A stretch of 46,348 nt of DNA from Planctomycetes bacterium RIFCSPLOWO2_12_FULL_50_35 (GTDB lineage: Bacteria; Planctomycetota; Brocadiia; Brocadiales; Bathyanammoxibiaceae). A program made the translations under genes and the position numbers. How positions within the stretch are numbered: the stretch's first letter is position 1; each line of letters starts with the position of its first letter. Shown here one piece after another: positions 27,835 to 44,556 of this stretch. The stretch is from assembly GCA_001828605.1 (NCBI GenBank), contig MHZB01000092.1, forward strand, positions 1-46,348. Reading direction: 5' to 3'. The notes under the pieces are model-generated. The model saw only the letters and a program-made list of their open reading frames with translations. It searched no databases and was not told where the DNA came from.

Positions 27835-28048
27835 GGGTTTCCAAACCCGGTCTCACACCTAAATCCAGCACTAATTAGGCCCGGATTTTTCCATACACAT
27901 AGGTAAAGTCTATATATAGTGTCACTAGAGGGTAAACCTGCTACATATGGAATAACTTATTAGTTTTTTGGTTGACAACCCTGTACGGTTGCAAATATAA
28001 TCGCGCCTTGGGCAAGAGATGCCCTAGAACATCATCCCTGTCAGAATA

Positions 28049-41929: not shown

Positions 41930-43162
41930 CTAATAAAAACAGATGCTGGCAAAGCTGACCATGCCCATAGAGTCCGGCCACTGTTCGTATTTGAGCAGTT
42001 TGCCCCCGGAGGCGTCTATTGTTCTAAGCAGTATGTATATCGGTGAAAGTCCACATATTTTTCTTTTATCGCCGTCTTTTTGGATATTACGGAAGAACCC
42101 CTCTGCGTCTATATTTTCTATAAAGTTTATCATGTTAATGTCTTCTTGGGCTATTTCCTGCAGGTCTTGGTCAGTTAGAGGTGATGGGTCGCCAAAACGT
42201 GGTCCGACATGGCTTAGGTCAGCGCTTGCCAGCAAGAACACCTCACGCCCACAGTTTTTAGTGACATCCTTCAGTGTCTCTACAAAATCGCTTACCTCCG
42301 GCACCGAGGATGGGCTGGTGCCGTTATTCAACATCTCATGGAATGATGAACAAAGAATCGGTACTACGCTAATATCATTCCTGCCGTCGTATAGATAATG
42401 AAGGAATGTGGTCTGAAACTCAATGGAGTGTTCATTCTTATGCGCAAATTCATCCCGGAAGAGTTTTTCCCCGATGTCCCTCTCCAGAGCAGTTACTATT
42501 TCTTTATCAGTATGAAGTGTGCCGAACGGTGTCTCGAAGTCCTTTTTTGTAAGCGTAAAAAGCCCGTCCGTTGCCCCGTGTGAGGTGCCCAGCACGATAA
42601 AGCATTTTGCGCCGGAATATTTTTCTATCTCTCTGTACCCCCATGCGAAGCAGGGACCTCCCCTGCCGAAGTCTATGTGTGGCAGTACGGCCCCTTTTAT
42701 CCCGTTCTTTGGTTCCTTCTCCGATTTTCTTCCGGTATGCTGGCCTGGACCTCCATCGGAGGTGAAAAATGCGTCAAATTGCCGCCGCAGCTTCGCAGGG
42801 TTACTCTCATACCCCTTTCCGGCGAAGGCCGCCTTCCTCAAGTTGGAACGCCGAAATGAATCCTTTAGGTTGTTTAGAAACAGACGGAACCGCTCGTTCT
42901 CCAGCAGCATAGCCTCGTCAAGCCTGCTTATGATTCCTTCGATTTTCTCTCTGAGCAGAATCTCGCCATGCCGCCTTGCGTAAGCCGTCTGTATGTCAAG
43001 TATGGAATGCTGTCCATCAAATAACCTGATTATCTCAATTACATGATAAGGCACAATAACCATCATGTCGGTGAGGTTAGATGAGTCTCTCAGGCACACG
43101 CCTTCCTTCCCCGGTGCGTTATACGAAAATGCCTCTATCGGGCGCAACTTGGGATATTCCAT
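41930..43162 (-). CDS. MEMO1-family (AmmeMemoRadiSam system protein B-like) protein with N-terminal PqqD-like helical extension
   Basis: AVLPHIDFGRGGPCFAWGYREI, FIVLGTSHGATDGLFTLTKKDFETPFGTLHTD, HKNEHSIEFQTTFLHYL, LLASADLSHVGPRFGD. Confidence 0.88.
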   Translation of the reverse strand: MEYPKLRPIEAFSYNAPGKEGVCLRDSSNLTDMMVIVPYHVIEIIRLFDGQHSILDIQTAYARRHGEILLREKIEGIISRLDEAMLLENERFRLFLNNLKDSFRRSNLRKAAFAGKGYESNPAKLRRQFDAFFTSDGGPGQHTGRKSEKEPKNGIKGAVLPHIDFGRGGPCFAWGYREIEKYSGAKCFIVLGTSHGATDGLFTLTKKDFETPFGTLHTDKEIVTALERDIGEKLFRDEFAHKNEHSIEFQTTFLHYLYDGRNDISVVPILCSSFHEMLNNGTSPSSVPEVSDFVETLKDVTKNCGREVFLLASADLSHVGPRFGDPSPLTDQDLQEIAQEDINMINFIENIDAEGFFRNIQKDGDKRKICGLSPIYILLRTIDASGGKLLKYEQWPDSMGMVSFASICFY

Positions 43163-43951: not shown

Positions 43952-44347
43952 TTAAGCGACTTTCCTTACTGAATAATCTCCTCTGTGTCTGTCCCTTAGT
44001 TCGCCAATCTTGGACTTATTCCAGTTGGATGTCCGGCTGTAATAACCCACTATCCTGGTAATGCCGTAGAGCTTCTCCCTTACGCCCGTCTCAAGGGACC
44101 CTATTACGACATCAAGCTCTTGCTTCAGGATAGCTTCCGGATTGATTGTATAGGACGTCTTCATACGATGGTTGTCAATCTTAAGGGCGTCCTTTTCAAA
44201 CTTTTTACCGGCAAACTCCTGGCCGGCATAAATCACCCCGTCAATCTCCAGATAATCGTGGGCATTAACGGCGTCACAAAAGGCCTGGAGTCTCTCCTCC
44301 AACACAGGGGTCTCACACACTTCTCTTTCGAGTAATGCTGGGGTCAT
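43952..44347 (-). CDS. Small protein with NrdD (class III RNR) C-terminal glycyl-radical-like tail
   Basis: C-terminus YGITRIVGYYSRTSNWNKSKIGELRDRHRG resembles the NrdD R-V-x-G-Y-Y-x-P-V-S-x-W-N-x-G-K...DR tail. AGGAG upstream; promoter and NrdR-like boxes further upstream. Confidence 0.7.
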   Translation of the reverse strand: MTPALLEREVCETPVLEERLQAFCDAVNAHDYLEIDGVIYAGQEFAGKKFEKDALKIDNHRMKTSYTINPEAILKQELDVVIGSLETGVREKLYGITRIVGYYSRTSNWNKSKIGELRDRHRGDYSVRKVA

Positions 44348-44509: not shown

Positions 44510-44556
44510 ACACAATATTTTGTATGGTTTTCTATTATCTACACAATATGTTGCCA
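44510..44556 (-). promoter_or_regulatory. Tandem NrdR-box-like sites
   Basis: ACACAATATTTTGTAT (44510-44525) and ACACAATATGTTGCCA (44541-44556), starts 31 bp apart. They match consensus acaCwAtATaTwGtgt at 14/16 and 12/16 by eye. Confidence 0.7.

Follow-up and report, generated by a model that had tools for sequence, protein, structure and literature searches.

A stand-alone glycyl-radical protein of Planctomycetota and Elusimicrobiota, proposed as a separate radical subunit of class III ribonucleotide reductase

Results

We analysed a stretch of 46,348 nucleotides (the window), contig MHZB01000092.1 of Planctomycetes bacterium RIFCSPLOWO2_12_FULL_50_35. The features considered here are as follows.

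43952..44347, minus strand: ORF for a stand-alone glycyl-radical protein of 131 aa (C-terminal PF13597 match, orthologues in 58/61 relatives), proposed separate radical subunit of class III ribonucleotide reductase (RNR)
43973..44062, minus strand: glycyl-radical loop, residues 96-125, ITRIVGYYSRTSNWNKSKIGELRDRHRGDY (invariant residues in 42 sequences; low pLDDT)
44045..44047, minus strand: codon of the proposed radical glycine, Gly101 (invariant in 42/42; aligned to the RxxGY glycine of Prevotella copri NrdD, 8p23)
44078..44314, minus strand: N-terminal domain, residues 12-90, predicted by AlphaFold2 as a helix, three strands and two helices
44510..44525, no strand assigned: NrdR-type box 1, ACACAATATTTTGTAT, 14/16 to ACACWATATATWGTGT, in the best-scoring tandem pair in the window
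44541..44556, no strand assigned: NrdR-type box 2, ACACAATATGTTGCCA, 12/16, 31 bp from box 1

A preliminary description, made by eye, had placed a 131-aa ORF at 43952-44347 without giving a strand. The coordinates are exact and the ORF lies on the minus strand; the plus-strand reading is interrupted by stops. The protein ends in GITRIVGYYSRTSNWNKSKIGELRDRHRGDYSVRKVA. Its only Pfam match is to PF13597 (NRDD), with residues 93-121 aligned to profile positions 533-560 of 562 (E = 8.7e-5), and the TIGR02487 NrdD profile agrees, matching at positions 550-580 of 581. Both scores lie below the curated thresholds (21.8 bits against a gathering cut-off of 26.2 for PF13597, and 17.2 against a curated cut-off of 326 for TIGR02487). 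The preliminary description had seen a likeness to the NrdD C-terminus, glycine included, and would have given it up without a significant profile match; the PF13597 match is significant, though under the curated Pfam cut-off. The end that it quoted did not stand, as the protein runs 11 residues further. It had also found the first ~95 aa unlike the NrdD barrel, in line with the absence of any other Pfam or TIGR02487 match to the first ~90 aa.

The loop (RIVGYYSR..NWNKSK) satisfies the RxxGY criterion of NrdD C-termini, and shares 66-73% identity over ~40 aa with most full-length NrdD of Brocadiaceae. In 42 aligned stand-alone sequences R98, G101, Y102, S104, N108, W109, N110, S112, K113, E116, L117, D119, R120, G123 and Y125 are invariant; the proposed radical glycine, whose variation would have counted against the assignment, is thus retained in 42/42. 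The protein does not meet the criterion of an NrdD barrel with catalytic cysteines (only PF13597 533-560 is matched), nor that of an NrdD-type four-cysteine Zn ribbon (CxxC pairs are absent), nor that of the PFL-type Gly_radical domain of Pfam found in GrcA/YfiD. It does meet the broader GrcA/YfiD criterion of a small stand-alone protein whose loop copies that of a glycyl radical enzyme. No match was found against PHROGs, or with phmmer using the single sequence against the PDB, and neither NCBIfam nor Pfam holds a model for the stand-alone protein. A profile of the stand-alone family matched P. copri NrdD in the PDB, but no better than E = 0.12, so that the link to the PDB depends on the loop alone.

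AlphaFold2 modelled the N-terminal domain confidently (pLDDT 72-91 over residues 11-90) and the glycyl-radical loop as disordered (pLDDT about 42). Such predicted disorder in a model of the lone protein is as expected if the loop is ordered only within a partner. With the model as query, Foldseek retrieved nothing at E<=0.001 from the PDB or BFVD, leaving the N-terminal domain without a known relative there. Profile comparison of the N-terminal domains of the subfamilies gave weak but consistent likeness (f1f5-f39, E = 3e-4; f39-Elusimicrobiota, E = 6e-5; f1f5-f3f4, E = 1.8e-4), and on this sequence evidence a single origin of the stand-alone family is probable.

To survey the family, 61 relatives, including the window genome, were searched. 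Matches were present in 59 and true stand-alone orthologues in 58; Candidatus Brocadia and Jettenia belong to the same order as the window genome. Shorter stand-alone proteins (about 101-119 aa) are found in other Planctomycetota and in Elusimicrobiota, so that the family occurs in at least two phyla. Orthologues in 58/61 relatives and a Gly101 invariant in 42/42 aligned sequences mean that the resemblance to the NrdD loop is not due to chance, which is ruled out by orthology and sequence constraint. The NrdD likeness is confined to the last ~30 residues, as it would be in a decayed fragment or assembly artefact of nrdD. That origin can be practically discounted: the N-terminal domain and the upstream boxes are conserved, the gene recurs in 58/61 relatives and at least two phyla, and the orthologues are intact and under constraint, the opposite of the decay that the preliminary description had named as a possible refutation. 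The 131-aa ORF is real and belongs to a conserved family in which an N-terminal domain of about 80 aa is joined to a canonical glycyl-radical loop of the NrdD type.

A further, divergent paralogue of the stand-alone gene occurs in some Brocadiaceae (L180 3450-3875, L181 3114-3419, and second copies in G017 and G029). A short contig in a record labelled Oscillospiraceae also bears a Planctomycetota-type stand-alone gene (L107 36-362), which is probably binning contamination.

The NrdR-type box pair lies between the stand-alone gene and thiD, and ends 162 bp upstream of the start codon of the former. Boxes were scored against a 16-bp NrdR consensus that we take to be ACACWATATATWGTGT. The pair at 44510/44541 scores 26/32, and is the only pair of >=25/32 in the 46-kb window at spacings of 17-69 bp. 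Tandem pairs scoring 21-28, nearly all at 31 bp, precede nearly all orthologues of the order; order-1 shuffles gave means of about 18-20 and maxima of 21-24, and the weakest pairs are not individually significant. Several f39-type stand-alone genes are also preceded by NrdR-type pairs, and in the Elusimicrobiota G066 and G067 a pair of 26 at 32 bp lies upstream of the nrd genes. NrdR is encoded in 30/31 relatives, the window genome among them. The published spacing of NrdR boxes is about 31-32 bp (PMC2892513), and the stand-alone gene meets the criterion for an NrdR regulon (two boxes 31-32 bp apart, and nrdR in the genome), in the absence of binding data. In the order nrdR is upstream of nrdD; pairs upstream of nrdR are weak (20-22/32), and none were found directly upstream of nrdD. 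With the same reservation about binding, the NrdR-type operators tie the stand-alone gene to ribonucleotide reduction independently of its protein sequence.

Elsewhere in the window a single NrdR-like 16-mer (AGTCTATATATAGTGT, 27907-27922, 14/16; pair 23 at 31 bp) sits between two genes of other function. Two of the divergent paralogues (L057, the same gene as L180, and L181) were checked and have no NrdR-type box pair. AmmeMemoRadiSam genes occur near the stand-alone gene in the window (41930-43162) and at L048 (5994-7001) and L036 (5953-6966), with AmmeMemoRadiSam protein B in the window's family and an activase-like radical SAM enzyme in two Brocadiaceae loci. This proximity may be due to chance or may reflect a second activase.

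The preliminary description had reported no NrdD or NrdG nearby. This holds for the window, and both are encoded on another contig of the same genome (C102), behind nrdR: a complete nrdD (E = 1.6e-118), with nrdR upstream and NrdG2 (TIGR02495, E = 3.2e-58) downstream. Comparison of the C-termini of full-length NrdD revealed a canonical RIVGYFSRINNWNKSKIGELADRH in Brocadiaceae (f5). In f1, the window's own family, the loop position reads RTDSY, RSDNY, RLDSY, RLDDY and similar, and the window genome itself has a degraded loop with a glycine, RLDGYKTGLDNWDASK. The loop motif is gone in f2, f3 and f4. In other Planctomycetota with a short stand-alone protein (f39, f45, f71, f88, f101), the NrdD profile match mostly ends at 529-551 of 562, just past the Zn ribbon. 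Elusimicrobiota NrdD also ends shortly past the Zn ribbon, and the tail gene follows directly; nrdG2 is directly upstream in 2/3 genomes, giving the operon nrdG2-nrdD(no loop)-tail gene, and in the third the contig terminates inside nrdD.

The canonical R[IV]VGY loop is missing from 46 of the 80 aligned NrdD proteins. Forty-two of these have no glycine at the radical column, and in four the column holds one outside the canonical context (RLDGY in the window genome, RTDGY in G005, and those of G384 and G329). The glycine in RLDGY means that the cis loop of the window genome could still be functional. The YYTNS motif and the CCRL finger loop are kept in 46/46 loop-less NrdD, the beta-A cysteine motif in 45/46 (the remaining protein is truncated there), and the four Zn cysteines in all 80 NrdD. 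Retention of these active-site motifs and Zn cysteines indicates that the barrel itself has escaped decay. In current annotation the loop-less proteins pass as ordinary NrdD, with scores above the TIGR02487 cut-off. In one Brocadiaceae genome (G041, locus L140), in which the stand-alone gene is present, the NrdD loop reads RIGDYFSRIDNWSKSK, with the glycine shifted or replaced, possibly a loss in progress within a loop-bearing family.

Loss of the loop from NrdD is complementary to its presence in the small protein: 43 of the 46 genomes whose NrdD lacks the canonical loop contain the stand-alone gene. A profile search found none in the other three, G004 (96% complete), G009 (77%) and G125 (73%). 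G004, with a loop-less NrdD and no detectable stand-alone gene, is either a true exception or an assembly gap, and counts against an obligate subunit. Among the 33 typed genomes with an intact loop the stand-alone gene is present in 18 (16 Brocadiaceae, G379 and G447). Loop state has to change 7 times on the NrdD tree; well-supported branches supply 3 independent pairs, and the paired test is underpowered. Most of the compared genomes are MAGs.

The genomes that carry both a canonical cis loop and the stand-alone gene (Brocadiaceae, G379, G447) would suit a protein that acts purely as a spare part, rescuing only oxygen-cleaved NrdD as GrcA does PFL, while NrdD normally uses its own glycine. 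We consider this improbable as a general account, since 46 NrdD lack the canonical loop and in 42 the radical column has no glycine. That absence in the split lineages already opposes it, as does the lack of any other detectable RNR in most of the loop-less genomes checked. The latter rests on PF02867, the domain of class I/II catalytic subunits, which was sought in 24 genomes (23 with the tail-gene split and one, G100, with another apparent split). It was found in only 3, and was absent from e.g. G011, G014, G030, G032, G042, G104, G164 and G194 (91-95% complete). PF02867-free genomes with a loop-less NrdD have no detectable RNR unless the loop acts in trans. The window genome has a PF02867 class I/II-type protein, so that this argument is not directly applicable to it.

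The pattern of constraint also differs between the two groups. In loop-bearing NrdD the mean pairwise identity of the 24-residue loop exceeds that of the barrel (Brocadiaceae, 0.97 and 0.89; other loop-bearing NrdD, 0.86 and 0.63), so that conservation normally peaks in the loop. In the split families the NrdD tail has an identity of 0.51 (f1), 0.64 (f3) and 0.36 (f39), with barrels at 0.84, 0.79 and 0.79. The stand-alone loops reach 0.93, 0.98, 0.92 and 0.89, and their N-domains 0.47-0.66. Judged by these identities, constraint has been transferred from the NrdD tail to the stand-alone gene. A regulator or decoy, modulating activity through a radical-free loop mimic that occupies NrdG or the barrel of NrdD, might be expected to have NrdR-type boxes and an NrdD-like loop. 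Such a role is nonetheless very unlikely: the radical glycine would not have to be kept in a decoy, and unless the loop works in trans it is difficult to account for a missing NrdD loop in genomes where no RNR other than class III was found.

Discussion

Textbook accounts of class III RNR describe one catalytic chain that bears its own radical. We propose that the product of 43952-44347 serves the anaerobic (class III) RNR as a separate glycyl-radical subunit, a reading in which we have high confidence, with radical formation, docking, transfer and essentiality inferred. NrdG2, the radical-SAM activase, would place the radical on Gly101 of the small protein, whose N-terminal domain may serve in docking. 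The C-terminal loop would then enter the NrdD barrel in place of NrdD's own loop and abstract a hydrogen from the cysteine of the CCRL finger loop; the resulting thiyl radical would carry out ribonucleotide reduction. In Brocadiaceae, where the NrdD loop is retained, the small protein would be a spare part like GrcA, and in lineages that have lost the loop it would be obligatory. Radical formation by NrdG2, docking, hydrogen transfer to NrdD, activation in trans and essentiality are all inferences.

The preliminary description had left two possibilities, an autonomous GrcA/YfiD-like tail and a split class III RNR component. Each finds its lineages. The former fits Brocadiaceae, where the small protein comes in addition to an intact NrdD loop. 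The latter fits the window's family, the other families of the order, other Planctomycetota and Elusimicrobiota, and is supported in those genomes by an NrdD loop that is decayed or absent while the small protein keeps its own; in both cases the function is inferred. That description had also asked whether the genomes with orthologues carry a full-length or a C-terminally truncated NrdD; it is full-length but without its loop in the split lineages, and with the loop in Brocadiaceae.

Structural and genetic precedents exist for parts of this proposal. In P. copri NrdD the loop Gly711 lies beside the catalytic Cys416, and the domain bearing the loop glycine is mobile (PMC11226230); a loop on a separate chain could occupy its place. 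PflB G734A forms formate in vivo with GrcA and not without it (PMC12338860). GrcA/YfiD of E. coli and Y06I of phage T4 resemble the stand-alone protein in being small, with an N-terminal part and a copied glycyl-radical loop; they supply the radical in trans, and can activate an enzyme without its own glycine (PflB G734A, PMC12338860). They serve PFL, whereas the stand-alone protein is proposed to serve NrdD and matches the NRDD family only. Unlike the host of GrcA/YfiD, the host NrdD has lost its own loop in many lineages, so that the stand-alone protein resembles a subunit rather than a repair part.

With the NrdD C-terminal domain (PF13597, TIGR02487) the stand-alone protein shares the RxVGY loop followed by NWNxSKxxELxDR, but it has its own gene, a new N-terminal domain, and neither Zn ribbon nor barrel. 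Class I RNR (alpha with NrdB/NrdF) likewise keeps the radical on a subunit separate from the catalytic one. There is no homology: that radical is a tyrosyl/metal radical in a ferritin-like protein, whereas here a glycyl loop is proposed inside the barrel, with a radical-SAM activase. Phage nrdD can also be in pieces, through introns, inteins and homing endonucleases (PMC3653736), but these are sporadic insertions in single phages, whereas the stand-alone gene encodes a conserved protein across phyla with complementary loss in NrdD.

Only YfiD and Y06I, both for PFL, have been validated as spare parts, and others may exist (Andorfer et al. 2021, PMC8683613). We found no literature on a separate or spare glycyl-radical part for NrdD in open-access papers, the subscription literature being excluded; the preliminary description, too, had held such a part to be not well described. 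If the proposal is true, the radical-bearing part of an essential enzyme is a separate subunit, and autonomous glycyl-radical proteins extend beyond PFL for the first time. It is probably an essential subunit missed by annotation, essentiality being inferred without biochemistry.

The lineages form an evolutionary series, from a spare part beside an intact enzyme (Brocadiaceae), through a decaying loop (the window's family), to a complete split (f39, Elusimicrobiota). We think it likely, with slightly less assurance than for the subunit itself, that an obligatory two-subunit class III RNR arose repeatedly from a spare-part tail via loss of the cis loop, and that many anaerobic Planctomycetota and some Elusimicrobiota have no other detectable RNR. 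Against the subunit stand the reliance on mostly MAGs, and the lack of a structure of the complex and of biochemistry.

Related arrangements were seen at other loci. G068, reached via an Oscillospiraceae record, has an 87-aa stand-alone protein (L199 1345-1605) with a different NrdD-type loop, RIRRITGYLVGTLDRFNNAKHAEVEDRVKHSVA; the full-length NrdD of this genome has its loop intact, and the 87-aa protein may be a spare part for another NrdD type. In G100 (contig C42, L227 2481-2672) an NrdD of another subtype ends just past the Zn ribbon, followed a few bases beyond by a 60-aa ORF with VYTRVMGYHRPVETFNVGKQGEF and then nrdG2, apparently a split that arose independently in another clade of NrdD, provided that no frameshift is involved. 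In G298 (contig C23, L226 2434-2634) a loop-less nrdD shares its 3' end with a 67-aa ORF that is read in a different frame and contains CEVYSRVTGYFRPVKNWNIGKQEEF, the result of either a split gene or a frameshift.
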